Positions 2,869-20,709 of a stretch of DNA of 22,232 nucleotides are shown here, one piece after another. The translations under genes and the position numbers were made by a program. The DNA is from a virus. Every line of letters starts with the position of its first letter. Position 1 is the stretch's first letter. Where the stretch lies: IMG/VR virus record IMGVR_UViG_3300042945_001791, positions 1 to 22,232 of that record; one strand, 5' to 3'. The notes beneath the pieces are model-generated. The model saw only the letters and a program-made list of their open reading frames with translations. It did not search any database and was not told where the DNA came from.

Positions 2869-4902
2869 TTAATATAGTTTAATCTCACAGGCATCTGTTG
2901 AGCAATAAGATTCACCTTCAGCCTCAAGATTTTCAATTCCATCATAAATAGCAGACCAGTCAATCTTGCCAATCGTGCCAACATATGTATTATATTCTTC
3001 TCTTGTGATTTCAGTATATGGTTGCTGAGGATAAGTCTTATTACCCATTGGAAGAAATGAAACTGCCTTAAGCTGGCCTTCATACATGTTGAGTGCTGGA
3101 GCAACAAACTGCTTTTCTGTTTCTTTGTCAAATGAGAGTGTTACAGAAACACCATTATCTGACCAGTACTTTTGAGCAGTTGCTGCCAAACCAATCTTTT
3201 CAAACAAGCTTACCTGCTTCTCAGCACGTCTATGTCCAGATGCAACGGGAAAATAAACTACTTGTGTATTTGCTGATACTAGATCTGGTTCAATCTTATA
3301 TCCCGCTGCTTTAAATAAATGTAGCATTGGATCAGTATTTCCAAAACGAATAGCACGAAGATAGAACTCTCCGCCAGGACCCCAGTGAACTCCAGGAGTA
3401 GCACCAGAAAGAAGTGACACAGATCCTGATGGCTTAACTGTTGTTACACGAACTGATTCACGAACACATAGCCATTCCGAATACTTGTGATCATAATAAC
3501 GGATCTTATTATATCCTTCATCCATCCACTCACGAGTTGTTGGAAGACCATGTTCATCTGCAAATGCAGCAATACCTGTAAGAGATGTACCAATGCGACG
3601 ATTTCTCTGCATGATACCGTTTGTTTGTTGCCAATGAGTTGGCATAAGTGTTACAGTTTTTCCATAAAGGTAAGCAAACTTCAATGTCTTGAGGAAGTCC
3701 TCCTTGGATTCATGACGATTAAGGTGCACTTCTACAAGTGTGCATAATTCGTAACTTTCCAATGGCTGCTCCGCACAAGGATTGAATCCCATAATACGGG
3801 AATCCTTATAATCAGGTGCATCTGCAAGACGGCCATAGTCTCTTGCAACATCAAGCCAAATAAAACCTGGCTCTCCATTATCTGCAATTAAATCTACATA
3901 GTCTTCATACTTTGTTCCAACTGTTGCCGAAATAGAATTGTTAGACATCCATGCCCAACCTGGTTTTTCTGGATCGTATGAGTTACGCTCTGGAAATACT
4001 TCTGGATTCTTTAGATTAATAAAACCATCATCTTCTGGTGTACCAAGAGCAAGGGTAGCAGAACGACGAACATTTCCAGAAACAACACAGGTACCAATAA
4101 GATTTACGATATCTACAATAGCACGGCTATCAAGGGCTTCACCTGCTCTAGAACCGATTACATTGCGAATGCGTGTATGGAGATCAATAAGTGGTGCTGG
4201 ACCGCTTGCAACGCCTCCAAAGCCTTTAATAGGGGCTCCTAGAGGACGGATAAGGTCATAGTTAAATTGCTGAATTGACTGGTTTTGACGTAGGAATGAG
4301 TTAATCAAAAGACGAACTGATTCAACCCATCCTTCACGAGTATCTGGAATTTCATAGATTGATTCTGGCTCAGTAGGAGCATAAATAGACATTTGCTTTT
4401 CTTGACCAAGGGTATCAAATCCAACTCCAATGCCTAGCATTAGCGCATCCATTACCCAGGCAAATAGGGCACCTGGATCATTACGATCAATGTCACGAGT
4501 AGAAACCATTGCACAGTTTTGAAGGGAAGCTGAGTTACGCTTCTCCATAGTCATTGGAGTTCCAAATGCCCATAGGCCACGTCCTGGTGGTGTCCACTTT
4601 AATTCAAACATTCTTTGAAATGCTTCTTGAGCTGACTTTTGTGACTTGTTATCATTCCATGGTAGACGGTTATCTTTAGCATGGTTCTTTTGTACTGAGT
4701 ACATACCCTCAATTACACGACGGCATACTTCATGCCAGCGCTCTTTTGTTCCGTCTTCTTTAACACGAGAATAAGTACGAATAAACGTAATCTCTCCTAA
4801 CGAGTTAGAGCCAGCATCTGAAAATCCAAACGGTGCTGGGATAGTAGAGTACTTATTTACAAAGTCCTCTGATAGACGAAATGAGAATACGCTTTCTGAC
4901 AT
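2869..4902 (-). CDS. nrdJ: Adenosylcobalamin-dependent (class II) ribonucleoside-triphosphate reductase
   Basis: A 677-aa protein that makes deoxyribonucleotides for phage DNA synthesis using a B12-derived thiyl radical, so it needs no oxygen and no small subunit. The residues match the monomeric Lactobacillus-type enzyme. C130 (in LQNCAMVS) and C387 (in ELCTLVEV) are the substrate-reducing pair, C376 in NPCAEQ is the radical cysteine with E378 as partner, and the C376-C387 spacing of 11 equals that of the reference enzyme (C408-C419). KPSGSVSLLSGATPGVHWGP (490-509) is the phosphate-site loop. The C-terminal shuttle pair is C667 and C672 in CSTDAC, again the same spacing as in the reference. 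At 677 aa it is somewhat shorter than the bacterial enzyme of about 740 aa. An AAAGGT site lies 10 nt before the ATG. Confidence 0.93.
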   Translation of the reverse strand: MSESVFSFRLSEDFVNKYSTIPAPFGFSDAGSNSLGEITFIRTYSRVKEDGTKERWHEVCRRVIEGMYSVQKNHAKDNRLPWNDNKSQKSAQEAFQRMFELKWTPPGRGLWAFGTPMTMEKRNSASLQNCAMVSTRDIDRNDPGALFAWVMDALMLGIGVGFDTLGQEKQMSIYAPTEPESIYEIPDTREGWVESVRLLINSFLRQNQSIQQFNYDLIRPLGAPIKGFGGVASGPAPLIDLHTRIRNVIGSRAGEALDSRAIVDIVNLIGTCVVSGNVRRSATLALGTPEDDGFINLKNPEVFPERNSYDPEKPGWAWMSNNSISATVGTKYEDYVDLIADNGEPGFIWLDVARDYGRLADAPDYKDSRIMGFNPCAEQPLESYELCTLVEVHLNRHESKEDFLKTLKFAYLYGKTVTLMPTHWQQTNGIMQRNRRIGTSLTGIAAFADEHGLPTTREWMDEGYNKIRYYDHKYSEWLCVRESVRVTTVKPSGSVSLLSGATPGVHWGPGGEFYLRAIRFGNTDPMLHLFKAAGYKIEPDLVSANTQVVYFPVASGHRRAEKQVSLFEKIGLAATAQKYWSDNGVSVTLSFDKETEKQFVAPALNMYEGQLKAVSFLPMGNKTYPQQPYTEITREEYNTYVGTIGKIDWSAIYDGIENLEAEGESYCSTDACEIKLY

Positions 4903-5027: not shown

Positions 5028-5552
5028 TTAGTGGTTTATATAATTAAAAGCTGTAGACTCATCTCCAAAAACAAATGTACTTATTGAATATCTTTCTCCA
5101 TCTACAACTGGAAATACTTGATGCTTAATATTGGCATTATGAATAACCATGCTTCCCGCCTTTGGGGTAATGCTTAAACCAAGATCTGGGTATATTAACT
5201 CTCCTCCGTCAAAGTCATCATTTAAATAAATAGTAATACCAAAAACTATTTTTTTAAGACTATCGGGAGGTGTAAAATCTGTATGTGGCGACATAAACTC
5301 TGAATTTTTTAGCCTTCTTAGGTGATTAGAATACATCATTGATCCTATATTAATAAAAAATGTTTCAATATTTTTATATACATTTTCTAGTTTAAAATAT
5401 AATTCATCATCCATAACTTTAATTATATTTCCGATACTTTTGGTATCCCAGCCAATATCTATTTTAGCCTCAGATAAAAAAATAGTTATTTGTTTTTCAT
5501 CTAAAAACCCTTCAATTTCATATACACCCTCTGTGTGTTTTATTAGATTCAT
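5028..5552 (-). CDS. Fe(II)/2-oxoglutarate dioxygenase, prolyl-hydroxylase-like (copy 1)
   Basis: A 174-aa single-domain oxygenase, the shortest of the eight. It should couple decarboxylation of 2-oxoglutarate to hydroxylation of a substrate. The double-stranded beta-helix core is clear: H90 and D92 in MSPHTDF bind iron, then YLNDDFDGGELIYPD (109-123), a PKAGSMVIH strand, the distal iron ligand H144 in IKHQVFP, and R154 in GERYSIS as the 2-oxoglutarate anchor. It is the last gene of the oxygenase operon, 19 nt after the dehydrogenase gene, with an AGGA site 7 nt from its ATG. The substrate cannot be read from sequence. The N-terminal cap is only about 80 residues, so substrate choice may differ from that of the larger copies. 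Confidence 0.88.
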   Translation of the reverse strand: MNLIKHTEGVYEIEGFLDEKQITIFLSEAKIDIGWDTKSIGNIIKVMDDELYFKLENVYKNIETFFINIGSMMYSNHLRRLKNSEFMSPHTDFTPPDSLKKIVFGITIYLNDDFDGGELIYPDLGLSITPKAGSMVIHNANIKHQVFPVVDGERYSISTFVFGDESTAFNYINH

Positions 5553-5571
5553 TTTACTGTCCTATTCTTTA

Positions 5572-6240
5572 TTAACTATACTTGCTACTGTTGATATGGC
5601 AAATTTCAATTTCATTTACATTTACATGACTTGGTAAAGATCCAACCCAGCATATTGCCTCTGCTAAATCTTCTGCAGTTAAAGCATTATCTTTTTTTTC
5701 TACCTGAGTATCAATTGTGGCTGGACAAATCTCGGTAACTTTAATGCCGTACTGTGGAAACTCTAGCCTCATGGTTTCTACAAGTCCTATTTGACCCCTT
5801 TTGGCATTTGTATAATTTCCTCCTCCAGGATACGGTACTTTTCCACCAAAAGAATTTATAAAAATAATCGTAGGTGAATCTGATTTTTCCATACATGGCA
5901 CAAATAATTGAGATAAGTACATAGGCCCAGTGACATTTATATCGTATGCTATTCTAAAATTTTCTGGTGTTTCATTTATAATATGGGTTGGACTTGATCC
6001 ACCGCCAGCATTATTTACTAAAAGATCTAACGTAATATCTTTATATTTTTCAAAGAATACCTCTATTGCCTTGAAGTCTGTTATGTCTAGGCTGTACACT
6101 TCAACATTATCTGAAACCAGATCTACTAACTTTGATAGTTCTCTTGAAACAGCAATAACTTTATATCCGTTTTTTGAAAGGTGTTTAACTGTTGCTAAGC
6201 CAACACCTTTGCTAGCTCCAGTAACTATTGCTGTTTTCAT
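5572..6240 (-). CDS. Short-chain dehydrogenase/reductase
   Basis: A 222-aa classical SDR, an NAD(P)H-dependent oxidoreductase acting on an alcohol or keto group. Visible motifs are TGASKGVG (7-14) for the cofactor, NNAG (76-79), N102 in DINVTG, and the catalytic S130, Y143 and K147 (YTNAK). All members of the Asn-Ser-Tyr-Lys tetrad are present. R33 in VSRE after the second beta strand suggests NADPH preference, a weak indication. It lies between oxygenase genes (copy 2 ends at the adjacent base, and copy 1 follows after 19 nt), so it is surely on the same transcript. It could oxidise or reduce a product made by the hydroxylases, or act on a sugar or lipid. It is unusual in a phage. Confidence 0.9.
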   Translation of the reverse strand: MKTAIVTGASKGVGLATVKHLSKNGYKVIAVSRELSKLVDLVSDNVEVYSLDITDFKAIEVFFEKYKDITLDLLVNNAGGGSSPTHIINETPENFRIAYDINVTGPMYLSQLFVPCMEKSDSPTIIFINSFGGKVPYPGGGNYTNAKRGQIGLVETMRLEFPQYGIKVTEICPATIDTQVEKKDNALTAEDLAEAICWVGSLPSHVNVNEIEICHINSSKYS

Positions 6241-6933
6241 TTACATAACCTGAGACTTATTAAGGTCCATTCCATTGTGAATCCAGTGTCCAGGTACCAT
6301 GTATTTAAATCCCGTTTTTACAATGTGAGCAGTATGATGATATGGAGCTGAGGAAGGAAATATAATAATGCTTCCTGCTTTAGGCTTTAGGCCAAAATCA
6401 ATTTCATTGTTTGCTACAGCAATATCATAGTCAAGGTTGGGGGATGGAAACTCACCAAGGTTTTTATATTCAGACAATTTGAATGATATTTCTCCCCCAT
6501 CAAAATCATCATTTAAATACACAACTAAAGAATATCTTAAAGTTTGATCTCCATCTAGTTGATCAAAATGTGCTCCCATACCAATTCCAGGCTTATATTT
6601 CTTAATATTAAATACTGGAAATAGTCTTGGATCGTCTGTGTCTCCTATGAACATTGCAAAATCTTTAGATACATCATACATAGAATCCATTATTGTTTCA
6701 AATATAAATGACATTTCAGAACGCAGGGGCTCTTCTAGAGTTTCAATTTGATTTTTGTCAAAAGATTTAGTTTCTCCATAAATAAAGTTTTTATCATTAG
6801 AGGCTGTCCAATTTTCCCAAGGCTCACGATTATTTAATTCATTAACTCTATCAATAGCTTTTATAAGCTGATCAAAATTTTTAACACCATCTTCATAATA
6901 GTATACTTTTTCGTGTAGTATTTGTTTTTTCAT
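6241..6933 (-). CDS. Fe(II)/2-oxoglutarate dioxygenase, prolyl-hydroxylase-like (copy 2)
   Basis: A 230-aa oxygenase. H122 and D124 (GAHFDQ) and H200 (PYHHTAH) are the iron ligands. The core strand reads VVYLNDDFDGGEISFK. K210 in GFKYMVPGHW takes the place of the Arg that usually holds 2-oxoglutarate; Lys at this place is also used by animal collagen prolyl-4-hydroxylases. An insert of about 30 residues (151-180) between the two core halves is larger than in copy 1 and may shape the substrate site. The SD site AAGGA lies 7 nt from the ATG, and the gene starts 9 nt after copy 3. The short gap and lack of a promoter place it in the operon that begins at 9865. Confidence 0.88.
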   Translation of the reverse strand: MKKQILHEKVYYYEDGVKNFDQLIKAIDRVNELNNREPWENWTASNDKNFIYGETKSFDKNQIETLEEPLRSEMSFIFETIMDSMYDVSKDFAMFIGDTDDPRLFPVFNIKKYKPGIGMGAHFDQLDGDQTLRYSLVVYLNDDFDGGEISFKLSEYKNLGEFPSPNLDYDIAVANNEIDFGLKPKAGSIIIFPSSAPYHHTAHIVKTGFKYMVPGHWIHNGMDLNKSQVM

Positions 6934-6942
6934 TTTAAGTCC

Positions 6943-7605
6943 TTAGTATTTATTGTTCTCATAAAAACCTACAACTCTTACAAACCCTACGGTGACATAT
7001 CTTATAGGTCCTTCTCCAACGTGTCTAACCCCATGCTCATACTCTGCATTACCTGGAAAGATAAGCAAAGTTCCTGGAGCTGGCTTTAAGTCTGAATTTT
7101 CTTTATTTTGAAAAAATAGTGTTCCATCTTTATAGTCATCATTAATATACAATATAGTGGCATATTTAATTGCTGGATCTGTATGCTGATCTGTATGTGA
7201 TATTAATTGAACTCCTGGCTGCATTCTTTGAAGTGTTCCAAATCCAGTAAGCTCTAATGAAGGATCTGATAATTTAATTAATTTTCCGACCCTAGCTTGA
7301 AGTGTTTTGCTTATTTGATAATGAGTTATGCTTAAATTTTTATCTTGCCATCCATGAGTTATTTCAAATTTACCTTCAGCAACTAGGTTGTCTACGTCAT
7401 CTCTTCCAAACTTTTCCATACAAAATCTAGCAAGATTTTTTGTGTATTCTATAGACCACTCTTCATTAGGGGTTGTTGAAATTATTTCTAATAAAGTTTC
7501 TAGCTCTTCTTTTTTTAAAAAATCTTTTACAACAAGAATTTGCTCATGTAAAACCTCAGTCTGGTATCCAGCGTCATCAAACTCTTTTTTTAAAAAAACA
7601 TCCAT
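6943..7605 (-). CDS. Fe(II)/2-oxoglutarate dioxygenase (copy 3)
   Basis: A 220-aa oxygenase with a longer N-terminal helical part (1-110). The iron ligands are H137 and D139 (ISHTDQHTD) and H191 (YEHGVRHV); R202 in PIRYVTVGF binds 2-oxoglutarate. The core signature is slightly divergent, ILYINDDYKDGTLFF in place of YLNDDxxGGE, with the second Gly-Glu replaced by Thr-Leu. A second His-x-Asp (HTD, 141-143) follows the first, so 137/139 is chosen because of its spacing to the core. The RBS AGGAG lies 9 nt before the ATG, at the very end of copy 4, whose stop codon abuts this start. The substrate is unknown. Confidence 0.85.
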   Translation of the reverse strand: MDVFLKKEFDDAGYQTEVLHEQILVVKDFLKKEELETLLEIISTTPNEEWSIEYTKNLARFCMEKFGRDDVDNLVAEGKFEITHGWQDKNLSITHYQISKTLQARVGKLIKLSDPSLELTGFGTLQRMQPGVQLISHTDQHTDPAIKYATILYINDDYKDGTLFFQNKENSDLKPAPGTLLIFPGNAEYEHGVRHVGEGPIRYVTVGFVRVVGFYENNKY

Positions 7606-8352
7606 TTATAGATCTCCTACCTTATATTTATTTCCATCAATATCTATTTTATAACCTTCTTTAAGAAGTTCTTGCCATTCTGCTTTTTCACTTGCTTGCT
7701 TAGCTCTAGTTGCTTTCATCTCTGCAGCCCAAGCATCTCTCAATTCTTGTGGGTATGCATCTTCTTCACGGTCATCCCAGAAAGAACCAATGGTATATCT
7801 TACACCCTTAGTAATCATTGTTACCTCATGCATATTATTGAATCCCCCGTCAAAAACAGCAAGCATCCCAACCTGTGGTTTAATCTCTATGTTATGGTCT
7901 GGAAACCTAAGAAGTCCACCTTCAAATTCATCATTTAAATATAGAAAACCTGCATACCTGCTTCTTGTAAATGCTCCTGAATTCCCATGCTCATCAGTAT
8001 TGTCAGAATGAATTCTTGCATATGCTCCAGGCTCCCATTTTTGAGTATGGTATCCAATTTTACATATTATGTTTGGATCTAAGTCGTGTACTGAAGCAAT
8101 TGCTTCATGCATCACCTTCTCAATACCTGAAAATATTGTTGGCTCAAGACCTGCATCAATTACTTCTTGATCATTGTCTTGTGGCAGAACAGAAGAATAA
8201 GATTCATAAAATGATATTGGCATCCAAGACATCTTTCCTTTATTTTCTTGATCATCTAATGCTTTTATCATTTTTTTACAAGTGCTATCATCAATAAAAT
8301 TTTCATAAATAACAATATCTTTTGTTAGTCTTTTTTTATTACTTAAATTCAT
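7606..8352 (-). CDS. Fe(II)/2-oxoglutarate dioxygenase with charged C-terminal extension (copy 4)
   Basis: A 248-aa protein. The oxygenase core spans about residues 10-195: H115 and D117 in ARIHSDNTD, YLNDEFEGGLLRFPD, H175 in NMHEVTM and R185 in GVRYTIGSFW. It carries a C-terminal tail of about 50 residues (196-248) that is rich in Ala, Glu and Lys and probably alpha-helical, absent from copies 1-3. The tail could mediate oligomerisation or binding to a particle or ribosome; this is a guess. The ATG overlaps the stop codon of copy 5 by 4 nt (ATGA), with an AGGTG site before it, so the two are translationally coupled. Confidence 0.88.
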   Translation of the reverse strand: MNLSNKKRLTKDIVIYENFIDDSTCKKMIKALDDQENKGKMSWMPISFYESYSSVLPQDNDQEVIDAGLEPTIFSGIEKVMHEAIASVHDLDPNIICKIGYHTQKWEPGAYARIHSDNTDEHGNSGAFTRSRYAGFLYLNDEFEGGLLRFPDHNIEIKPQVGMLAVFDGGFNNMHEVTMITKGVRYTIGSFWDDREEDAYPQELRDAWAAEMKATRAKQASEKAEWQELLKEGYKIDIDGNKYKVGDL

Positions 8353-9203
8353 ATATTTGACACCTGATCCTTAATTGTTCCATCTGGATTTAAACCAAGC
8401 TTTTCATTATCTCTATTATAGCTATCAGCATAGTTTTCTGGGTTTGGGATATTCTTTTGTCTATACTCATGGATTTCAATCTGTTTCATTTCATTCCATT
8501 TTTCTAAACCATACTCTTTAGCCCCATCGTGCCAAGATTGATCGCCTTCGTATTGTGACTTCCAAAAAGATCTTACTATATATCTGTTTACATTAAAAGC
8601 TCTTTTTACTGCATGAAAATATGGAGATCGTGATGGAAAAATCATCATATCTCCTGATTTTGGCTTATAAGAAAATCTTGCATCTGACCCATCTTCTTCT
8701 TTAATTAAAAAACAAATTTCTCCCTGTTCATAATCATCATTTAAGTATAGCGTAGAGGTTATTTCAAACTTATGACCTGGCCAAGAGTCTTCTCCTTTTG
8801 TTTCATCAGAATGATATGCCATTGAAAATGTTTTACTGTGTCCTTTATCTTTATCAACTACATACTCACCAATTGATGGTGGTGAACCAATCCAATTTTC
8901 TAACTCCATTGGATACATGCTTAACCAATGTTGTGTATTTTTATAAAAAATTTTTCCATATTCTTCTGCAAACTCAGGATACTGGCTATTGTGTATGTAA
9001 TTTTTTATAAACTCATCATAGTTAGGGAAATTATTATGTGTTGGAAAAAAATTTGAAGTATTATATATTCTTCCATACATACCCCAATCACCCAGTTTGC
9101 TTTCATCTTGCTTTAAAAAATCATCTATCCAAAAACGTGGATTTTCAAAAGAGTTTGGGTATACAAGTATTTTTGGGTATATCTCTATAAAGTCAGCTGT
9201 CAT
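8349..9203 (-). CDS. Fe(II)/2-oxoglutarate dioxygenase, longest copy (copy 5)
   Basis: A 284-aa oxygenase, the largest of the set. It has about 120 residues before the core and a C-terminal extension of about 70 residues rich in Glu, Lys, Asn and aromatics (212-284). The metal site is H131 and D133 (AYHSDETKG) and H197 (PYFHAVKRA), with R207 in VNRYIVRSFW as anchor. The core strand is TLYLNDDYEQGEICF. It shares the RSFW-type end and C-terminal tail with copy 4 (GSFW), so these two are likely sister copies. The start overlaps the stop of copy 6 by 4 nt and a GGAAAGAG stretch lies before it. Confidence 0.88.
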   Translation of the reverse strand: MTADFIEIYPKILVYPNSFENPRFWIDDFLKQDESKLGDWGMYGRIYNTSNFFPTHNNFPNYDEFIKNYIHNSQYPEFAEEYGKIFYKNTQHWLSMYPMELENWIGSPPSIGEYVVDKDKGHSKTFSMAYHSDETKGEDSWPGHKFEITSTLYLNDDYEQGEICFLIKEEDGSDARFSYKPKSGDMMIFPSRSPYFHAVKRAFNVNRYIVRSFWKSQYEGDQSWHDGAKEYGLEKWNEMKQIEIHEYRQKNIPNPENYADSYNRDNEKLGLNPDGTIKDQVSNI

Positions 9204-9865
9204 GGCTGTCTCTTTCCTATATGTTTTTGTATTGTCCAGAAAAATGGTATCACGTATCTAACTCCAGAGGTGATCTCTCTTACTCCGTGTACATAGTTCA
9301 AATCCCCTGGAAAAAAATATGCTGCTCCTGGCTTTGGTTTAAATTCAATGTCTTGGTTTGGAAAGTATAACTCTCCACCCTCATAATCATCATTTAAGTA
9401 AAACAGTCCAGCTATGTCAAACCATGGGAAATCATTTGGTTCACCACTTGGTAACTGTTTATCAGCATGTGGCATTTGAAATTGTCCTGGAAGCCATCTT
9501 ACAATTGCTGGACTTGTTTCTTTTGCATCAACCTCAAAATATGAATCTACATCTTTTTTAAATCTTTTAACCATGTTAGAAATAACAACTGAAATATTTG
9601 GATCATTTTTGTCAAGAGTTGGACTAGTGGCAACCCTGTCTTTCCAATAATCTGAGTCATAAGTAATGACTCCATTTTCATTATAGTGTGTTTCTGTAAC
9701 GTCCCAAACTGTTATTTTTTTTGCTGCTTCTAATAAAAATTCATGTTCTTCTTTAGTCATAAAGTTTTCTCTAGATTGAATATGTTTTGGAGATGATCCA
9801 AAAAACCCAGGTGGGGTTATTGACTCGTACTTAACCATGTTACGATTTTGAATTTCTTCTATCAT
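9200..9865 (-). CDS. Fe(II)/2-oxoglutarate dioxygenase, first gene of operon (copy 6)
   Basis: A 221-aa oxygenase. The iron ligands are H133 and D135 (MPHADKQ) and H193 (YVHGVREI); R203 in GVRYVIPFFW anchors 2-oxoglutarate. The core reads LFYLNDDYEGGELYFPNQD, close to the canonical prolyl-4-hydroxylase-like pattern. The first ATG at 9865 is exactly 6 nt after a TATAAT box, so this gene should be leaderless and start the unit copy 6 - 5 - 4 - 3 - 2 - SDR - copy 1. A second ATG at codon 10 has no RBS and is less likely. Confidence 0.88.
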   Translation of the reverse strand: MIEEIQNRNMVKYESITPPGFFGSSPKHIQSRENFMTKEEHEFLLEAAKKITVWDVTETHYNENGVITYDSDYWKDRVATSPTLDKNDPNISVVISNMVKRFKKDVDSYFEVDAKETSPAIVRWLPGQFQMPHADKQLPSGEPNDFPWFDIAGLFYLNDDYEGGELYFPNQDIEFKPKPGAAYFFPGDLNYVHGVREITSGVRYVIPFFWTIQKHIGKRQP

Positions 9866-9871
9866 ATTTTT

Positions 9872-9880
9872 ATTATATCA
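9872..9880 (-). promoter_or_regulatory. Leaderless promoter of the main oxygenase operon
   Basis: Minus-strand TGATATAAT with AAAAAT between it and the ATG at 9865. With the last base of the box at -7, +1 falls on the A of ATG. It lies in the 19-nt gap after the gene at 9885-10610. Confidence 0.65.
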
Positions 9881-9884
9881 TCTC

Positions 9885-10610
9885 TTATTCATAGGACCTT
9901 TTAGTCCAAACCTTATTTTTATAAATACCACCATTTGGTACACGATACTTTTTACTATTTGTAGTATTGTTTATAAGAATTTCATCTATTGTTGGAATTA
10001 CTGTTTCAGATTTCCAGTCCTCTCTTAAAAATGGAATCATTTGAACATATGGTGTTCCAGCTGGGACTACTCCAGTCCATCCTTCTTGAACAAAAAATGG
10101 CATTGAGCCAGGAAGATTAACCTTATCATTATCTATTATTCCAGAAACAGTTATGAATGGAAGATCGTATCTATTAAATGGTGAAGAATAAAGTACGCTG
10201 TAGCCATTTGGAACTTTTATAGCCCACTCTGGAAACCATGCAAAGTGATTTTTATAATATCCATGTGGGTGCTCAAATTGTGGCATAGGATCTCTTCTTG
10301 TAACAAAATCTTGATAAAGTGGATCACCTACCTTGACAGTAATACTGCCAGAATCATTAAGAAAAAATTCTATATCGCAAGGAGTTACAAGGCTATACCC
10401 CGTTGTCATTATATCCAATAATGCTGGACATGCTTTCCATGTAGGAACCTTTCCAGTGTCTGGACCAATCCAATATTCCCCATTAGGCATCTTTGCAAAT
10501 CTATCTGCCTGTCTATACCAATTTGGTATAAACTTTGACATTGATTGCGGTCTTGACTCACTATCGCTCTTTAGCCAATATCTATTGCTTATAAAATTTA
10601 TTATTTTCAT
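9885..10610 (-). CDS. Conserved phage protein of unknown function, DUF6065-like relative
   Basis: A 241-aa protein without an HxD iron site, so not an oxygenase. Its pattern is known from T4-like and cyanophage hypothetical proteins: IPNWYRQA near the start, then ACPALLDIMTTGYSLVTPCDI, NGYSVLYSSPFNRYDLPF, SGIIDND and VPAGTPYVQMIPFLREDWK. The last part resembles a beta-barrel (cupin or dUTPase-like) closing strand, so a small-molecule or sugar binding fold is possible but unproven. It is related at a distance to the following gene product, which shares the GTP-xx-xIIP/QMIP segment and the SxxF/PF context. The start overlaps the end of that upstream gene by 4 nt (ATGA). I give no enzymatic role. 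Confidence 0.7.
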   Translation of the reverse strand: MKIINFISNRYWLKSDSESRPQSMSKFIPNWYRQADRFAKMPNGEYWIGPDTGKVPTWKACPALLDIMTTGYSLVTPCDIEFFLNDSGSITVKVGDPLYQDFVTRRDPMPQFEHPHGYYKNHFAWFPEWAIKVPNGYSVLYSSPFNRYDLPFITVSGIIDNDKVNLPGSMPFFVQEGWTGVVPAGTPYVQMIPFLREDWKSETVIPTIDEILINNTTNSKKYRVPNGGIYKNKVWTKRSYE

Positions 10611-11311
10611 CTTGAATTATCAATTACACTTAACTTTAAGTTTTTAACTTCGTGAGAGCCAATAGATTCTCCTTTTTCATTTGTTGCATTACGATACCAA
10701 TCAGTCCACTGGCCAGACTCATTTATTTTTCTAGCAGCAGAACCATATGCTATAGCATCATTGTTATATTCTTCAGTGGGCTCAAAATTTAATATTTCAA
10801 CTGATTCATCCTTAAGTGATGTAACAGAAATTGGAATTATTGTTGCTATTGGAGTTCCAGCTTTTATAGTTATTTCTTTATTTGCAGTTTTACATTTAAT
10901 TGCTAAGGGAAAGTCTGTTCTTAAAAAAGAAGTTGAAACTAAAGATGAAACCACCTCAAAGTCATTACTAAAATAGTTTGGTGGTGTTATTGTAAGAACA
11001 CTCATACTTTGATCTGTTCTTAACATAAACCCAGTATTGAAGCTTACTGTTGACTGACCTCTTCCAGTATAGGCATTATATTCACCTTCTATAATTTTTA
11101 CATTATCTCCACTTGTATCATTTATGCCGTTCCAGATAAATTTAAAATCTTTGTTAGAATAGATATACCATCCAAGAACATTGGCAGACGTTACTGGATG
11201 ACACCTATAGGCATGACCTTGCGGTGTTTCATCCATCCAATCTCTTTTAATAGACATTGGGGCTATCATCAGCCCATTTGGATCTTTTTTGTAGCATGTA
11301 ATTATTGACAT
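10607..11311 (-). CDS. DUF6065-family-like protein
   Basis: A 234-aa protein. The segments SIKRDWMDETPQGHAYRC, NVLGWYIYSNKDFKFIWNG, FNTGFMLRT, LTITPPNYFSNDF and VSTSFLRTDFPLAIKCKT, followed by IKAGTPIATIIPI, fit my memory of the DUF6065 family of unknown function, found in phages and bacterial genomes near oxygenase or glycan genes. The predicted content is mostly beta. It shares a stop-start overlap (TAATG) with the upstream oxygenase gene and a 4-nt overlap with the downstream gene, so the three are co-translated. The role is unknown; a substrate-binding partner of the oxygenases would fit the context but is inference. Confidence 0.7.
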   Translation of the reverse strand: MSIITCYKKDPNGLMIAPMSIKRDWMDETPQGHAYRCHPVTSANVLGWYIYSNKDFKFIWNGINDTSGDNVKIIEGEYNAYTGRGQSTVSFNTGFMLRTDQSMSVLTITPPNYFSNDFEVVSSLVSTSFLRTDFPLAIKCKTANKEITIKAGTPIATIIPISVTSLKDESVEILNFEPTEEYNNDAIAYGSAARKINESGQWTDWYRNATNEKGESIGSHEVKNLKLSVIDNSR

Positions 11312-11982
11312 TACGATCCAGTTTCTTGATAAAATTCTGGCTTGTGATATTTATCACTATAATCAAGCATAGTAACTAAAGAATATTTTATACCAGAATG
11401 CACAACCTTTGCTTGATGTGGATACATAAAGTTTGATGGGAATAAAACAACATCTCCAGCTTTTGGAATGTAGTTAATTCCTTGGAGTCTAAAGAAGAGC
11501 TCTCCGCCTTCAAAATTATCGTTTAAGTATGCTACTAAAGACAATGTGCAGTTATAGGAAAACCCATGATCATGGTGCTCCATAAAGTGATGTCCTGCTT
11601 CATACTTAATAAAATTAAAGGCTTCCCAATATCTTAAATTATTTATATTAAATTTTTTAGAATAGTCTTGTACTGCTAGGTTTTGTCTATCAAAACAATC
11701 TTGCCAAATTTCCTGAAGTTTTATTGAGTCTGGAGATAGATCACCTTGTATATCTGTTTTTTTAAATTTAAAATCTACACAATCTCTATACTCTGGCATT
11801 CTTTGTTTGTATCCAACATATGCTGGTTGCCACCTATAGTTGGTTCTTTCTCTACCTAAAATTGACTCTAGTCTATTGATAATATCTAAATCTTTTTTAA
11901 GAACATCGTGATAAACTATAATTCCTGGAGCTATCTCTTCGCAACTACTCCAAGAAACTTCTGTATTTTGATCTGTATTCAT
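11311..11982 (-). CDS. Fe(II)/2-oxoglutarate dioxygenase, RDC-motif subgroup (copy 7)
   Basis: A 223-aa oxygenase. The core has H136 and D138 (MEHHDHG), VAYLNDNFEGGELFF, KAGDVVLFPSNFMYPH with H189 as distal ligand, and K199 in GIKYSLVTM. The anchor is thus Lys. It shares with copy 8 the N-terminal YRDCVDFKF (65-73; RDCSDFKY in copy 8), the YWxxFN-like region WEAFNFIKY, the HDHG/HADHG metal motif and the GIKY/GTKY ending. These two form a subgroup distinct from copies 1-6. The start has a strong SD (AAGGAG) 6 nt upstream. The gene begins 21 nt after copy 8 ends. Confidence 0.88.
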   Translation of the reverse strand: MNTDQNTEVSWSSCEEIAPGIIVYHDVLKKDLDIINRLESILGRERTNYRWQPAYVGYKQRMPEYRDCVDFKFKKTDIQGDLSPDSIKLQEIWQDCFDRQNLAVQDYSKKFNINNLRYWEAFNFIKYEAGHHFMEHHDHGFSYNCTLSLVAYLNDNFEGGELFFRLQGINYIPKAGDVVLFPSNFMYPHQAKVVHSGIKYSLVTMLDYSDKYHKPEFYQETGS

Positions 11983-12003
11983 ACCTTCTCCTTAAATTAG
12001 ATT

Positions 12004-12714
12004 TTATTTATATGTTTGATGACCTAGAAGATTAATATCTGACATGACAACTATGCAATACTTTGTACCAGACTTTAATGGAAGTGATGCATGTTCATAA
12101 ATATAGTTTGATGGAAAAACTGCAATGTCTCCAGCTTTTGGCTTATAGGTTAAGTTGTCTAACCTTGGAAAATATATTTCTCCACCTTCATAATCGTCAT
12201 TTAAATAAGCGACAATAGATACAGTTGTATTATAGTGTGGGCCATGATCTGCATGAATTTTAAACTCTTGGCCCTCACCCTGATATTTTACAAAATTAAA
12301 TACCTCGTAGTAAACAACATTAAATCCCCAATACATAGCATAATCATTGACACATTTTTTTACTAGGTCTTCCATTTTTTCATAGATATGAATTAGACCA
12401 GCATTGCTTTCATTCTTAGGTCCCAAAGTTTTACTATTATACTTAAAGTCAGAGCAATCTCTTGCTGCTTTGATGGGTTTTTCAGAATTAGTAACCTTAG
12501 CTTCTTGCCAAGAATAAGTTGAACCATCGGACAAGCTACTTTCCAGGGTATTAATAACTAATTCTATGTCTTCAGCACTTATAGCATTTTCATAAATATT
12601 TAATCCAAGTGCTGGATTAGAAACATTTTTATTATCTAGTACTCTATGTACTCTATTTGATAATGATTCTGATCTATCTTTAGTAAACCAAGGATTTTCT
12701 TCTTCTGTGTACAT
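12004..12714 (-). CDS. Fe(II)/2-oxoglutarate dioxygenase, RDC-motif subgroup (copy 8)
   Basis: A 236-aa oxygenase and sister of copy 7. H154 and D156 (KIHADHG), H208 (IYEHASL) and K218 (GTKYCIVV) form the active site; VAYLNDDYEGGEIYFP is the core strand. ARDCSDFKY (84-92) is the shared N-terminal motif. It is the first gene of a second oxygenase unit (copies 8, 7, two DUF6065-like genes). It has its own promoter (12757-12765) and a 36-nt leader with GGGGG 9 nt before the ATG, not a normal GGAGG. That leader could be a target of C-rich RNA. Confidence 0.88.
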   Translation of the reverse strand: MYTEEENPWFTKDRSESLSNRVHRVLDNKNVSNPALGLNIYENAISAEDIELVINTLESSLSDGSTYSWQEAKVTNSEKPIKAARDCSDFKYNSKTLGPKNESNAGLIHIYEKMEDLVKKCVNDYAMYWGFNVVYYEVFNFVKYQGEGQEFKIHADHGPHYNTTVSIVAYLNDDYEGGEIYFPRLDNLTYKPKAGDIAVFPSNYIYEHASLPLKSGTKYCIVVMSDINLLGHQTYK

Positions 12715-12786: not shown

Positions 12787-13026
12787 TTAGTCTTCTCTTC
12801 CCCATTTTCCAATAGGACACTCTGCATTAGCAAGCCTTGTTTTTGCTGTCATAAAACAACCACATTTTTCACATTGTTTTGTTGTTTTTGTTAAAAACTC
12901 ACAGCCATTACATAAATCCATTCTTTTTTCAACTATAGATTTATCTTTAATTTGTCTGTTTGGATCTAGTAAATGCCAAGGTCTTGCATCTCCTAAATTA
13001 TTTTTCCATTCATTCCATTTTGACAT
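12787..13026 (-). CDS. Small cysteine-rich zinc-ribbon-like protein
   Basis: A 79-aa protein. Cys residues lie at 39, 42, 52, 55, 57 and 70 in the order CNGC, CEKCGC and ECPIGKW. The motif pattern C-x2-C, C-x2-C-x-C, then AxCPxGKW with KTRLA between is a recurring phage small-protein type that likely binds one zinc or a metal cluster. Its position between fibre and oxygenase genes recurs in my memory of aquatic phages, but I cannot name a function. The ATG lies 1 nt after the stop of the upstream gene and has no clear SD, so it may rely on coupling. Confidence 0.75.
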   Translation of the reverse strand: MSKWNEWKNNLGDARPWHLLDPNRQIKDKSIVEKRMDLCNGCEFLTKTTKQCEKCGCFMTAKTRLANAECPIGKWGRED

Positions 13027-13027
13027 A

Positions 13028-13459
13028 CTACTTTTTAAACCCCTCTACACTATAAACTTCTTTTCCATTCCACAAATCACCTAAGTCAGCATCAAGATAA
13101 TCAGAAATATTAATGACAATTACATTACTTTCTATAGCTGCCCTATATTTTTCAACAAATGGATGTTGATGGATTATTCTAAACATTCCAAAAACAATAT
13201 TTTCTGATAAAAATACATATGTGTCAGCATTTTGGTCAAAAGGTATAGGATCTTTTTCACTATTAAGGATAAAGTCTTGTCCATTCCAAGAAGAACCTAA
13301 ATTAAATTTTTGATCATGTTTAAGAAAAACTACTTTGGTTTCTTTTTTTGTACTTTCTTTATACCTTGCATCCATTTCTGAATTTTCTTCAGCATCTATT
13401 AAATGAAAAATTTCAAACAAGCTATCTTCTAAATTTACTGCAAGAGCATAAGTGCTAAT
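13028..13459 (-). CDS. Hypothetical protein with apparent AUU start
   Basis: A 143-aa protein of unknown function (after start: STYALAVNLEDSLFEIFHLI). In the frame, the first ATG/GTG/TTG is a TTG at 13420 with no RBS. Upstream of it, 13 more sensible codons run to an ATT at 13459, placed 7 nt after an AAGGGG site (13467-13472). The next gene upstream, the FN3 protein, has AAGGGG, 7 nt, then ATG, so ATT sits where ATG is expected. A GTG at 13467 is one base out of frame; it could reach this frame only by a -1 slip on six A residues. The extra N-terminus looks like real protein. The sequence contains acidic and hydrophobic segments and no recognised motif. Confidence 0.6.
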   Translation of the reverse strand: MSTYALAVNLEDSLFEIFHLIDAEENSEMDARYKESTKKETKVVFLKHDQKFNLGSSWNGQDFILNSEKDPIPFDQNADTYVFLSENIVFGMFRIIHQHPFVEKYRAAIESNVIVINISDYLDADLGDLWNGKEVYSVEGFKK

Positions 13460-13499: not shown

Positions 13500-14327
13500 C
13501 TAAAATCCGCAAGTACCACAATTGCAATAGAATCCTGATCCGCAACCACCAGGGCATGATGGGCAGAAGTATGGGAAGAACGGTCCAAATCCTGGGAAGA
13601 ATGGGAAGAATGGACCAAATGATGGGAAGAATGGGAAGAACGGAAAGAACGGAGGAAAAAATGGAAAGAATGGAGGAAAGAACGGTGACAATGTTGTTAC
13701 TGAAGCAGATGCTGCAGAAATAATTCCTGATCCATTGGCATTGGTTGCTCTAACTGTATATGTTTGAGATGTTCCTGCGGTATCTGCAATAACAATAGGA
13801 GATGTAGATCCTGTTCCTGAAGTTCCATCGCTACCATTTACGGTATAACCAGTAATTGCTTTACCGCCAGTAGCTGGACCTGTAAATGCAATAGAGTTTT
13901 GATTTACACCAGCTGTTGCTGTTGGTGCTGACATGGTTGCTGGAACAGTTGTTGCTGTTACAGAAGAAGATGTTGTACCAGTTGCAGTTCCACTTGCATT
14001 TTTTGCTTTTACAGTAAATGTATAAGATGTATTTGATGCAAGTCCTTGAAATGTATATGAAGTTGTAGAAGATCCAGTATCATGTGTGTAGGTAGAAGGT
14101 GTTGTTGTAATTACATATGATGTTGCTGCTATTGTTCCTGGCTGTGTCCAAGAAAGAGAAACAGATCCTCCAGTTCCTGCTGCAGAAGCTGCAGATGTTG
14201 TATTAGCTGTAGCCAAATATGGTCTGCTTGTACCAACATCTGTTGCTGTTAAGCTAGTTACATTGGATGGCTCTAAGAAGTTATCTTGAGCTGAAGACTT
14301 AATGCCTCTTTTTCTTGCTTGTGCCAT
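13500..14327 (-). CDS. Fibronectin-III tail protein with FFP-rich, Cys-rich C-terminus
   Basis: A 275-aa virion protein candidate. Two fibronectin-III-like repeats can be seen: about 44-128 (SVSLSWTQPG, SYVITTTP, YTFQGLASNTSYTFTVKAKN) and 130-212 (SAPTATAGVNQNSIAFTG, ITGYTVNGSDGT, YTVRATNANG). Then follow 40 residues (215-254) of FFPPFFPFFPPFF-type repeats, with about 30 Phe/Pro residues, and a last 21 residues with six Cys (CPSC, GGC, YCNC, GTC). Such FN3 domains often mediate carbohydrate or surface contact on phage tails. The FFP tail may be a hydrophobic, aromatic patch. The gene has AAGGGG 7 nt before its ATG. It ends at the promoter of the next gene. Confidence 0.82.
   Translation of the reverse strand: MAQARKRGIKSSAQDNFLEPSNVTSLTATDVGTSRPYLATANTTSAASAAGTGGSVSLSWTQPGTIAATSYVITTTPSTYTHDTGSSTTSYTFQGLASNTSYTFTVKAKNASGTATGTTSSSVTATTVPATMSAPTATAGVNQNSIAFTGPATGGKAITGYTVNGSDGTSGTGSTSPIVIADTAGTSQTYTVRATNANGSGIISAASASVTTLSPFFPPFFPFFPPFFPFFPFFPSFGPFFPFFPGFGPFFPYFCPSCPGGCGSGFYCNCGTCGF
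13559..13688 (+). repeat. Purine-rich tandem repeat encoding the FFP tail
   Basis: On the plus strand the segment is made of short units such as GGGAAGAAT and GGGAAGAAC, nearly all purine from about 13612 to 13688. It is the antisense of the Phe/Pro-rich codons (TTC/TTT and CCx). Repeats of this kind are prone to slippage and length change. Confidence 0.7.
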
Positions 14328-14346: not shown

Positions 14347-16428
14347 TTATGCTGACAGATCGCCCATGACGACCCAAGTATTTTCTGCTCTCTTGAAAAG
14401 AGTTGCAGATGACCACTGTGCTCTTAGTTTTGCTGTATTAGATCCACCAGAAGGTGTGCAGTTTAGCGTTCCTCCAGATGCAATAGTGATAGAAACTTGT
14501 CCTGTACCAGTTTGTAGTATATCAATAGAAGTTCCTACTGGGTATGCTATCGTAGCATTTAGTGGAATTGTAAGAGTAGATGCACTTGACTTATTAACTT
14601 CAATCAACGAATCTCTTTCAGTTAATGCTGAAAGTGTGTATGAATCTGTCTTTTGAATGATTGGTGTACGTGATGCTACACCCTCTTTTGTCTGTGTTCC
14701 GTCTGTAAAGATAAATCCACCAGCTGTTGAGCTAATTACTGCAGTTCCATTTACCTTTAAATCTTTTCCAGAAGCAAGGTTAATATGCTCTGAAGAAGTC
14801 CAAGAGTCTGTGGCATCTACCCAGTTAAAAGTTTTGTCTGTTGCGCCCTTAAGTGTGATACCTCCACCATCTGCGGTTGTATCTGATGGGCTAGCAACTG
14901 AGCCTAGTTCAATATTTTTATCATCTATAGAAAGTGATGTTGAATTTAATGTTGTAGTAGTTCCATTAACTGTGAGATCGCCAGAAAGAGTTAAGCTAGT
15001 TCCAGCAATTGCTCCTGTGAATGTTGCTCCAGAAAGGTTTGCCTTTAGGTCAAGCGCTGTTTGCTGAGCAGTTGAAACTGGCTTGCTTGCGTCTGCTGTA
15101 TTATCAACATTTCCAAGGCCAACCATGGTTTTTGTAATTCCTGTTGCTGTTGTTGTTACAGCAAGTGTAGGAATTGTCACTGTACCAGTAAATGTAGGTC
15201 CAGCAACATCTGCTTTAGCTGTGAAGCTATCTGAAAGACCTGAAATCTTAGACTGTGCAATAGCTGCTGTAGCAGATATGTCACCATCTACGATTGTTGC
15301 ATCTGCAAGCATTGTGCTTGTTACTGTACCAGTATCGGCAACTGTAACTGCTGTACCTGAAATCTTAGTCTTATCAATTGCTGCAGAAGCATTAATATCT
15401 GCGTTAACAATTGTTCCGTCTGCAATCATTGCAGATGTAACAGTTCCTGTTGGAAGAGTCACTGTTCCTGAAAATGTAGGAGAAGCAAGGTCTGCCTTTG
15501 ATGAAAGATTTGATGAAAGAATTGATGTAGTCACTAGAACTGATGTATCTGCAATTCCGTGTATACCTGTTGTATCTGAACTATGTGCTGTGATATCTGC
15601 TGTAGTTGCAAGAGCTGATGTATCAGCAATACCGTGGACATTTGTTGTATCAGTATCGTGAGCAGAAATGTCTGCTGTAGTAGCAAGTGTTCCTGTAGCA
15701 TCTGGAAGAGTAATTGTACGATCAGCAGTTGGATCTGTAACTACCAAAGTAGTTTCAAAGTTATTGTCTGTTGCACCTTCAATAATGATTGAAGATCCAG
15801 GAACTATAAGATTTAGGCTTGAGTTAAGTCCTGCTACACCAGATGCTCCACCAATATCTGAAGTTTCAACATACCCACTTAAAGATGTATTTACTGATTC
15901 TATTAAGGCAACTGTTCCTGTTGCGTCTGGGAATGTGATAGTTCTATCTGCCGTAGGATCTTCTACTGTTAAAGTAGTTTCATGAGCATTTGCTGTAAGA
16001 CCTTCAAAGACAATTCCTGTTGTAGCATTAATTGTTGTGCTGTTAATAGTGGTAGTTGTACCGCTTACAGTTAAGTCTCCTGATACTGTAACATTTCCAC
16101 TGCCGTCAGCCAAAACCACTGTTCCGCTAGCATTTGGAAGAGTAATTGTACGATCTGCTGTAGGATCTGTTACGGCAAGAGTTGTTTCATAATCATTGGC
16201 GGTAGCACCTTCAAAAGTAATGCTAGAACCAAATGATGGGTTTACTGTTGAGTTAGCATCAATAAAGTAATCAAGGTTGATCCAGTGATTTGTTCCATCA
16301 CCAATTTTAAATTTATTTGTGTCGGTTTCATATCCGATTTCACCAGCGTTAAGGATAGGACCATTGCCAGAGTTTGTAGAAACCCATTGAGCTGCAGTTC
16401 CTCTGCGCTGTTGCATTCTTGTTGCCAT
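14347..16428 (-). CDS. Tail fibre protein with Mtd-like N-terminal domain
   Basis: A 693-aa fibre. Residues 1-55 contain MQQRRGTAAQWVSTNSG, NAGEIGYETDTNKFKIGDG and HWINLDYF, the pattern of the major tropism determinant N-terminal (Mtd_N) domain, which attaches fibres to the tail. Next come three copies of a ~33-aa motif, ETTLxVTDPTADRTITLPxAxGT, and repeats such as SGDLTVSGTTTTINST. A block near 465-545 (DDKNIELGSVASPSDTT, GGGITLKGATDKTFNWVD) is nearly identical in the 624-aa fibre. The C-terminal ~100 residues (after RTPIIQKTDSYTLSA) form a separate beta-rich tip. Its promoter is at 16461-16469 and it has SD AGAGGAG. Confidence 0.85.
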   Translation of the reverse strand: MATRMQQRRGTAAQWVSTNSGNGPILNAGEIGYETDTNKFKIGDGTNHWINLDYFIDANSTVNPSFGSSITFEGATANDYETTLAVTDPTADRTITLPNASGTVVLADGSGNVTVSGDLTVSGTTTTINSTTINATTGIVFEGLTANAHETTLTVEDPTADRTITFPDATGTVALIESVNTSLSGYVETSDIGGASGVAGLNSSLNLIVPGSSIIIEGATDNNFETTLVVTDPTADRTITLPDATGTLATTADISAHDTDTTNVHGIADTSALATTADITAHSSDTTGIHGIADTSVLVTTSILSSNLSSKADLASPTFSGTVTLPTGTVTSAMIADGTIVNADINASAAIDKTKISGTAVTVADTGTVTSTMLADATIVDGDISATAAIAQSKISGLSDSFTAKADVAGPTFTGTVTIPTLAVTTTATGITKTMVGLGNVDNTADASKPVSTAQQTALDLKANLSGATFTGAIAGTSLTLSGDLTVNGTTTTLNSTSLSIDDKNIELGSVASPSDTTADGGGITLKGATDKTFNWVDATDSWTSSEHINLASGKDLKVNGTAVISSTAGGFIFTDGTQTKEGVASRTPIIQKTDSYTLSALTERDSLIEVNKSSASTLTIPLNATIAYPVGTSIDILQTGTGQVSITIASGGTLNCTPSGGSNTAKLRAQWSSATLFKRAENTWVVMGDLSA

Positions 16429-16460
16429 TTATAGTCTCCTCTTTCGTGGTATCTTATAGT

Positions 16461-16469
16461 ATTATATCA
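16461..16469 (-). promoter_or_regulatory. Extended -10 promoter for the 693-aa fibre
   Basis: TGATATAAT with +1 near 16454, followed by a ~25-nt leader that includes an SD AGAGGAG (16436-16442). Confidence 0.6.
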
Positions 16470-16474
16470 GATAA

Positions 16475-16936
16475 TTAACTAAAATTATCTAATGGGCTTC
16501 CGCCGTCGTAACTGTTAGTCCAGTATTCTGAGTCATAGAATCCTGCAATTTCAGTTGATGTAAAAATTGAGTCGTAGAAGCCTGCGTCTTGGAATACTGA
16601 AACAATAAGTCCAGTTCCGTCAATTGCAGTATCGTGAATGTGCTGTCTAAGATCAGCGGTATCTGAAAATGTAGCAATCATTATCCATTCAGCCTGATCA
16701 GTAGAGTAAATAGATAGATGGCGTGATACTGTATCAAACCATAACTGTCCATCTACTGGAGATGTAGGTGCTGTTGATAATGCTGGAGCAACAGGAGCTT
16801 TTGTGTCTACATAAAGCTTAGTAGCTGCATGTGTGTTTTGAGTTGGGGTACCAACTGTGACAGTTCCTCCAAAAGTACCGCCTTGGGCTACATCTAGCCC
16901 ATGCTTTACCTTAAAGTCTCTATTTGTTGTTGTCAC
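16475..16936 (-). CDS. Short fibre/baseplate protein
   Basis: A 153-aa protein with GTG start. SD GGGAG lies 6 nt before the GTG (16934-16936), and there is no competing ATG nearby. N-terminal RDFKVKHGLDVAQGG resembles the KDFRVKAGLVVEGS start of the 624-aa fibre, then GTPTQNTHAATKLYVDTK, a pattern seen in fibre adaptors. A segment ADQAEWIMIATF-like (STDQAEWIMIATFSD) and a repeated AGFYDS (AGFYDSIFTS, AGFYDSEYW) follow near the C-terminus. It is probably a structural fibre or chaperone-like piece. It lies between the two large fibres on the same strand. Confidence 0.75.
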   Translation of the reverse strand: MTTTNRDFKVKHGLDVAQGGTFGGTVTVGTPTQNTHAATKLYVDTKAPVAPALSTAPTSPVDGQLWFDTVSRHLSIYSTDQAEWIMIATFSDTADLRQHIHDTAIDGTGLIVSVFQDAGFYDSIFTSTEIAGFYDSEYWTNSYDGGSPLDNFS

Positions 16937-16955
16937 AGTTGGCTCCCGTCTCTAA

Positions 16956-18830: not shown

Positions 18831-18843
18831 TTTATCTCCTTAG

Positions 18844-19290
18844 TTAAGCCTTCAAACCAATACGCAAATAGCGCAAGGTAATCGGGGTTTGTCCACCCAC
18901 TGGAACTACAGTTAGTGAAACTGTATCTCCTGCTCTAGACACGGAGATGGTGCCAATATTCCCATCGTTGTCCACTGTTCCATATTCACTAACACTCACA
19001 TCTGTGTTGTCAGGGACTATGGTTAATTCTGTGGCCCAATACTTGTTTGCACCACCAGAAGTCTTTTTAATTGAGACCATGTATTTTACTGATCTCCACT
19101 CGCTTGCTAAAAAGTTATCAAAAATTGTTGAGTTTTCAATGCCGTTAATTGTAACTTCATTGTTGCCATCTGAACCAAGGTCTGTTGATCTTGCAGAGGT
19201 ACTGTCAATCAAATCTTCATAGTTTGTTTGACTTGGACGGTCTCCAGTCTGAAAAAGACCCTTGATGCTTGCGATTGATAATTTAGCCAT
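18844..19290 (-). CDS. Fibre-associated protein sharing a C-terminal domain with the 624-aa fibre
   Basis: A 148-aa protein. The first ~60 residues (MAKLSIASIKGLFQTGDRPSQ) form a short adaptor seen in some marine and freshwater phage fibres: KLSxxxIKxLFxTGxxPTxxx. The remaining part, WRSVKYMVSIKKTSGG to the end, aligns with the tip of the 624-aa fibre (KY-V-KK, EY, GT and GGxVxLxV spacing). It is leaderless: TATAAT, 6 nt, ATG. The genes are 13 nt apart and likely on one transcript. Confidence 0.78.
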   Translation of the reverse strand: MAKLSIASIKGLFQTGDRPSQTNYEDLIDSTSARSTDLGSDGNNEVTINGIENSTIFDNFLASEWRSVKYMVSIKKTSGGANKYWATELTIVPDNTDVSVSEYGTVDNDGNIGTISVSRAGDTVSLTVVPVGGQTPITLRYLRIGLKA

Positions 19291-20007: not shown

Positions 20008-20088
20008 TTGCTTTTTGTGGCAATCACATGTTATACTTAGTTAGTGCTACCAACTGGTAGCATCTTTAGTCTCTAGGAGGTTATTTTG
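20008..20088 (+). promoter_or_regulatory. Lysozyme promoter, 5' hairpin and SD
   Basis: Plus strand: -35-like TTGCTT at 20008-20013, 18-bp spacer, extended -10 TGTTATACT at 20029-20037, predicted +1 near 20044. Directly at the 5' end lies GCTACC (20046-20051), loop AACT, GGTAGC (20056-20061), a perfect 6-bp stem. SD AGGAGG at 20075-20080 is 8 nt before the ATG at 20089. Confidence 0.7.
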
Positions 20089-20670: not shown

Positions 20671-20709
20671 ATACCCCCTTGGCTATTTGCCTTGGGGGTA
20701 TTTTTTTTT
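20671..20709 (+). terminator. Terminator of lysozyme gene
   Basis: ATACCCCC (20671-20678) and GGGGGTAT (20694-20701) pair across an inner GGC/GCC stem, then nine T residues (20701-20709). The stem also works on the minus strand for the convergent collagen gene, but its U-tract there is poor (CTTTATAAATT). Confidence 0.85.

Follow-up and report, generated by a model that had tools for sequence, protein, structure and literature searches.

An ordered phage cassette of 2-oxoglutarate oxygenases linked to the gene of a phenylalanine-proline tract protein

Known peptidyl hydroxylases and oxygenase-rich phages

Oxygenases dependent on 2-oxoglutarate (2OG) and Fe(II) are among the commonest unexplained genes of phages. 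Eight of them lie in a single array on the virus fragment analysed here (IMG/VR record IMGVR_UViG_3300042945_001791, 22,232 bases, referred to in its full length as the window), and upstream of the array stands a gene encoding fibronectin-III (fn3) domains and a tract rich in phenylalanine and proline (F/P tract). The linkage of this tract gene and the array was observed directly and is strongly supported. From it we infer the chemistry, namely that the cassette is a multi-enzyme set hydroxylating the tract of a tail-module protein, to which a probability of roughly 0.6 may be assigned. The cassette thereby supplies a concrete candidate substrate for phage 2OG oxygenases.

Among described enzymes, PHD2/EGLN1, Cr-P4H-1, vCPH of PBCV-1, PPHD of P. 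putida and the prolyl 4-hydroxylase (P4H) of B. anthracis resemble those of the window in PF13640 membership, in the HxD...H iron site and in a basic 2OG anchor. The fold comparison covered C8, the oxygenase nearest to the tract gene. Its profile matched only protein prolyl or lysyl hydroxylases in the PDB (E-values to about 2e-7), and its AlphaFold2 (AF2) model (pLDDT 88) matched in Foldseek PHD2 with a HIF peptide, an algal P4H with (Ser-Pro)5, the collagen prolyl hydroxylase of PBCV-1 and P. putida P4H-EF-Tu. C8 is thus predicted to be nearest to peptidyl hydroxylases in fold and in sequence, with a template modelling score (TM) of 0.5-0.7 to prolyl 4-hydroxylases but an identity of only 13-18%. 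Unlike these, the oxygenases of the cassette stand in tandem as orthologous types, five to eight or more in number, and their candidate substrate is an aromatic-proline tract instead of collagen, Ser-Pro, HIF or EF-Tu.

T4-like cyanophages usually hold 1-5 2OG oxygenases and cyanophage S-SCSM1 possesses 24 genes for 2OG-Fe(II) oxygenases (PMC9602691), so that the initial annotation of the window, which credited phages with single or few such genes, had put the number too low. The cyanophage enzymes share with the present ones their phage origin, their occurrence as several copies per genome and the match to phrog_61, at an identity of at most about 33% over full length. In cyanophage ACG-2014h, two of about 10 oxygenases are located beside tail-fibre genes, but they are dispersed, unlike the array, and no F/P tract was found, unlike in the cassette phages. 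Peptidyl hydroxylation of a repeat protein is a kind already known; the novelty is the fixed, ordered cassette with its partner gene and not the number of oxygenases. In the open-access papers searched, neither an ordered array nor an F/P tract nor a link between the two was found, and likewise none was found that mentions the repeat string in connection with phage biology or deals with DUF6065, a family represented in the cassette.

The oxygenase array and its linkage to the tract gene

The eight genes with full iron sites and basic anchor which the initial annotation had reported at 5028-12714 were all recovered as minus-strand open reading frames (ORFs) matching PF13640 (2OG-FeII_Oxy_3) above the Pfam cut-off of 27 bits. 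In the direction of reading these are C8 (12004-12714, 48 bits), C7 (11311-11982, 47 bits), C6 (9200-9865, 37 bits), C5 (8349-9203, 33 bits), C4 (7606-8352, 37 bits), C3 (6943-7605, 39 bits), C2 (6241-6933, 39 bits) and C1 (5028-5552, 43 bits). The HxD motif, the distal H and the basic K/R are complete in 8/8 copies, and all share a YLND-like strand, which reads YIND in copy 3. The phrog_61 profile is matched by seven copies; the sole matches of C5 are phrog_2297 and phrog_3531. In BLASTP comparisons between copies, the best identities mostly amount to ~22-45% over partial alignments, and the paralogues are therefore old; recent tandem duplication is also ruled out by the separate, supported clades of C1-C8. 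A defence-system reading was ruled out as well, since PADLOC matched only through a generic profile for 2OG enzymes that it lists as CRISPR-associated.

The proposed gene-order survey of related phages was based on an IMG/VR scan with C8, which returned at least 564 relatives, and 80 loci were retained. With a hidden Markov model (HMM) built from the eight window copies, 494 oxygenases were detected across the retained loci plus the window; a locus typically carries 6-7 of them and at most 11. The order C8-C7-C6-C5-C4-C3-C2 was present in 67 of the 74 loci scorable through four or more oxygenase types, with C7 and C8 swapped in four and C5 terminal in three. Complete arrays (n=56) are those holding both C8 and, by definition, C2; all of them contain C7, C6 and C4, 42 contain C3 and 34 contain C5, with C1 being a variable accessory of 13 cluster members. 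Each type forms its own clade in a tree of 471 sequences, with a support of 0.64 for C1 and of ~0.9 or more for the others (0.998 for C6 and 0.90 for C7, the sister of C8). The residues H, D, H and K/R are kept in 466/467 full-length copies from relatives, and 95% of array neighbours in related loci are spaced by 30 bp or less with a median overlap of 1 bp, an operon-like arrangement.

Two doubts had been raised together with the annotation, inactive copies and an assembly artefact. Degenerate copies are ruled out by the nearly invariant iron and 2OG residues, and an artefact additionally by the recurrence of the same order in dozens of contigs. Since the copies are orthologous across phages, keep their order and almost never lose their ligands, the sequences support the earlier proposal of a dedicated modification system rather than drift. 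No similarity was found between the cassette DNA and phage isolates, and a scan of cellular genomes in GTDB for C8-like arrays yielded only four weak single-enzyme loci, in which both an array and an F/P tract were absent.

The candidate substrate is encoded at 13500-14327 on the minus strand (275 aa) and comprises fn3 domains (PF00041, E 5e-11), a C-terminal (F/Y)FP(P) tract, SPFFPPFFPFFPPFFPFFPFFP, and a Gly/Cys-rich tail. In nearly every related locus, fn3 domains followed by a tract such as PPFFPFFPPFFPFFPFFP are encoded directly upstream of C8. This gene had been overlooked in the initial annotation, whose unit of 5028-12714 is too narrow, as the cassette reaches 14327 with the repeat-protein gene included. 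Its suggestion of several substrates or sites is not supported as regards several substrates, since the data point to one repetitive class of substrate.

In the forward direction, the tract gene was located upstream on the same strand in 68/81 array loci. The contig ends within 1.4 kb upstream in 12 of the 13 exceptions, and the thirteenth (L081), a contig with split-looking genes, keeps a cluster-15 homologue. In the reverse direction, stretches were sampled by tract DNA only, and 58 of the 61 with at least 4 kb downstream featured a same-strand oxygenase within 5 kb downstream, 56 of them three or more. The corresponding values for contigs absent from the first set were 17/19 and 16/19. Long tract-bearing contigs nearly all carry six or more PF13640 genes; among those of 30 kb or more, G002, G005 and G047 are the exceptions.

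Two further contig sets were sampled by the portal gene only, with an array being counted from five copies upwards. The first set (20 contigs) comprised six arrays, all with a tract, and tracts occurred in 2/14 of the others. The second (26 contigs of a second portal lineage) comprised four arrays, one of which showed the FFP pattern; just upstream of the other three, where the linkage model predicted a tract gene, an fn3 protein with a tract of the type FF[A/S/G]PPx was found, and a pattern for this second type, written after those tracts had been seen, matched these three contigs and 0/30 other contigs tested. Pooled over the 46 contigs, F/P tracts accompany 10/10 arrays and occur in 2/36 other contigs, with a nominal Fisher p of 1.6e-8 that overstates the strength because the contigs are fragmentary and not phylogenetically independent. 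As in collagen- or extensin-like systems with a dedicated P4H, a proline-repeat candidate substrate is hence genetically tied to hydroxylases.

The oxygenases might instead act elsewhere, on a host envelope glycan, a small molecule or a host protein, with the tract gene being a co-inherited neighbour in a mobile block. PF13640 members do vary in substrate, and the operon also includes a short-chain dehydrogenase/reductase (SDR) gene, joined in some loci by a glutathione-peroxidase-like one. We regard this explanation as rather improbable, given that the tract occurs together with the array in the portal-chosen contigs, accompanies it even with a different tract sequence or with the array placed elsewhere in the genome (contig G004), and that only peptidyl hydroxylases are found among the nearest relatives of solved structure.

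A solitary and different PF13640 gene was observed beside the portal gene in G077, G079, G082, G084, G086-G088 and G094, together with no F/P tract. Single oxygenases in related phages thus do not accompany tracts. This bears on a generic auxiliary metabolism, by which the oxygenases would alter host 2OG or nitrogen signalling, or DNA repair, as was proposed for many-oxygenase phages by Sullivan et al. 2010 (PMC3037559) and in the work on S-SCSM1 (PMC9602691). A 2OG sink needs no five distinct, ordered and universally kept paralogues tied to a repeat protein, and lone oxygenases going without tracts likewise make such a role most improbable for the cassette.

Composition of the tract and proposed chemistry

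F, P and Y together account for 92% of the residues in 83 tracts, and almost every unit is [F/Y]FP or [F/Y]FPP. Synonymous codons vary within the tracts (TTC/TTT, CCA/CCG/CCT), and it is therefore the amino-acid sequence that is conserved. The same tract occurs in other proteins of array-bearing contigs, for instance in one of 959 aa encoded by L090 and in a PASTA-like one encoded by L029. The second type, (FF[A/S/G]PPx)n on fn3 proteins, is exemplified by FFAPPSFFAPPS or GFFGPPLFFGPP; after it had been seen, the rule that every proline is directly preceded by F was abandoned. The tract protein ends in a Cys-rich tail or elsewhere in a Hint/intein-like domain below the Pfam cut-offs, which suggests self-processing. 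This domain replaces the tail in L079:8637-9905, L033:8558-9895, L029:16933-17907 and L360:8021-9409.

Arrays without C3 carry Tyr-rich tracts (median 0.28 vs 0.04; p 6e-6 uncorrected, 0.02 tree-corrected). The association is suggestive only, and it would fit an action of C3 at Tyr or close to it.

According to the proposed mechanism, the tract protein would be co-produced with two DUF6065-type proteins, the five core oxygenases C8, C7, C6, C4 and C2 and the optional C5, C3 and C1. With O2, Fe(II) and host 2OG, these oxygenases would then hydroxylate the tract; its prolines are the most likely sites and the beta-carbons of Phe possible ones, with each paralogue presumably serving its own position or sequence context in the repeat. 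Several paralogues may suit several contexts (F-P-F, F-P-P, P-P-F, the two Phe positions and Tyr replacing the first Phe), and it is speculation that the five core enzymes correspond to five positions of the repeat. The product might be a hydroxylated, polyproline II (PPII)-like adhesive or stiff element of the host-contact apparatus of the virion, maybe at the tail tip. The tract as substrate, the residues modified and the place of the protein on the virion are all inferred.

In a further-reaching and rather doubtful version, five or more peptidyl oxygenases and the DUF6065 proteins would constitute an assembly line in which each modifies a set position, resulting in a densely hydroxylated virion adhesive. 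The tract would here be a low-complexity aromatic-proline polymer, and the positions tentatively envisaged are the proline of FFP, both prolines (Pro1, Pro2) of FFPP and the phenylalanines. If this version were true, it would represent a class of biomaterial without a described counterpart. Tract hydroxylation in its simpler form would already mean that phages build post-translationally hydroxylated repeat proteins, a new type of modified viral protein; several hydroxylases for aromatic-proline polymers would be gained, and cyanophage enzymes could be approached by the rule of seeking a low-complexity Pro tract near an array.

Several observations weigh against tract hydroxylation. Adjacency in the late or tail region can arise by co-transfer without shared function. 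The contigs G002 and G005, both of 30 kb or more, bear a tract and no array in their sequenced part (0 and 1 PF13640 genes), and G047 (38 kb) contains a tract and no PF13640 gene. Arrays with more enzymes do not go with tracts of more repeat units (Spearman 0.10, p 0.5), and the link of C3 to Tyr is one of several tests and stems mostly from one clade.

A different repetitive virion protein could also be the substrate, e.g., the collagen-like (GXY) fibre protein encoded in the tail module at 20708-21451 on the minus strand, which was noticed as a possible second substrate. Vertebrate and viral P4Hs do act on collagen. Collagen-like ORFs, in a count limited by the flanks, were present in 13/81 array loci as opposed to the near-universal F/P tracts, so that such a fibre is a very unlikely primary target.

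Cassette borders, accessory genes and flanks

Along the minus strand of the window, tail-fibre-like genes are followed by the fn3/F-P-repeat gene, two small genes, C8, C7, D2, D1, C6, C5, C4, C3, C2, the SDR gene, C1, a gap, NrdJ, a small gene, the portal gene and the head protease. The flanks outside the cassette are a tail-fibre-like gene on the 5' side (14347-16428) and NrdJ, a class II ribonucleotide reductase, on the 3' side (2869-4902; phrog_367, E 1e-142), both on the minus strand. In array-less relatives sampled by the portal gene, the tail-fibre gene is followed by NrdJ after ~148 bp, with an NrdJ 84-96% identical to that of the window and a C-terminal tail-fibre motif, LRAQWSSATLIKRA..WVVVGDL, common to both. 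The block of ~9.3 kb from the tract gene to C1 is missing from them as a whole, so that the tract gene and the oxygenase genes seem to enter or leave genomes together, as a single cassette. In G004, the site next to NrdJ is empty and the array is located elsewhere, at 57-66 kb, with tracts present. As NrdJ is kept in array-less relatives, it is a border gene.

Two proteins encoded within the array had been annotated as DUF6065-like. This holds by Pfam for D2 (10607-11311; PF19541, 107 bits vs a cut-off of 26.6), as for its homologue in L027 (102 bits). D1 (9885-10610) has no Pfam match and is tied to the D2 group via phrog_7084 (E 2e-31) and weak BLAST matches to D2 homologues. Both, or close paralogues, sit between C8, C7 and C6 in related loci, and D2 or its close paralogue occupies the equivalent place in most loci. 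The AF2 model of D1 (pLDDT 92) weakly matches dCTP deaminase/dUTPase (Foldseek E 3e-4, TM ~0.3 by query and 0.6 by target), and a sequence search of solved structures with D1 gave no credible match. D1 carries a dUTPase-like G-I-I-D-x-D stretch, a motif lost in D2.

The dUTPase-like features of D1, the adjoining NrdJ and a match of copy 1 alone to PF12851 (TET/JBP) below the cut-off (18.7 bits vs 34.9) could together indicate a nucleotide or DNA modification pathway with the oxygenases as TET/JBP-like base hydroxylases. Such a pathway is quite unlikely, since NrdJ is retained without the array, C2-C8 match PF13640/P4H and not TET/JBP, D2 has lost the dUTPase-like motif and no recurrent glycosyltransferase or DNA methyltransferase was found in the cassette.

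Outside the cassette phages, D1 matches haloarchaeal viruses of the HF2 type at about 26% as a DUF6065/phrog_7084 relative; unlike the cassette, HF2 showed no PF13640 gene and no F/P tract. The HF2 relative, noted for D1 together with L274:11908-12792, is a hypothetical protein encoded close to the ribonucleotide reductase and the tail module of that virus. The capsid maturation protease of the window is up to 54-55% identical to those of the Streptomyces phages Wakanda, Comrade and BillNye, and phage isolates of this type gave no match to C8 or the cassette DNA. Actinobacterial hosts are likely, because of this protease similarity and the presence of the actinobacterial marker WhiB in 8/15 long relatives. 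The IMG samples are presumably mostly from freshwater.

The remaining genes of the cassette, all on the minus strand of the window, vary among loci. The SDR confirmed by Pfam (5572-6240; PF00106, 141 bits, E 3e-41) is a variable accessory at the 3' end of the array. Between the tract gene and C8 are encoded a small protein of 130 aa (13028-13420), absent from some loci and without Pfam or PHROG matches, and a variable DUF6171-like, Cys-rich protein of 79 aa (12787-13026; PF19668, 28.6 bits vs a cut-off of 27). Five loci possess a glutathione-peroxidase-like gene (PF00255; e.g., L080:13557-14330, cluster u42) between C6 and C4, all of them without C5, as if C5 had been replaced. More than a dozen arrays have an insertion between D2 and C6 that encodes a protein of 151-156 aa without a family match (L045:3934-4389 and L043:7064-7534; clusters u24 and u55). 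Near C1 and the SDR gene, L073:10560-11174 (cluster u30) encodes an accessory protein that by eye resembles FkbM-type methyltransferases and has no Pfam or NCBIfam match.

In the tail module, a 191-aa gene at 20086-20661 lies on the plus strand amid minus-strand genes; its product appears lysozyme/transglycosylase-like by eye (SYGIFQIN) and has no PHROG or NCBIfam match. The region 14347-19290 consists of a run of long, low-complexity and mutually related tail-fibre-like genes, the combinations of which vary among relatives.

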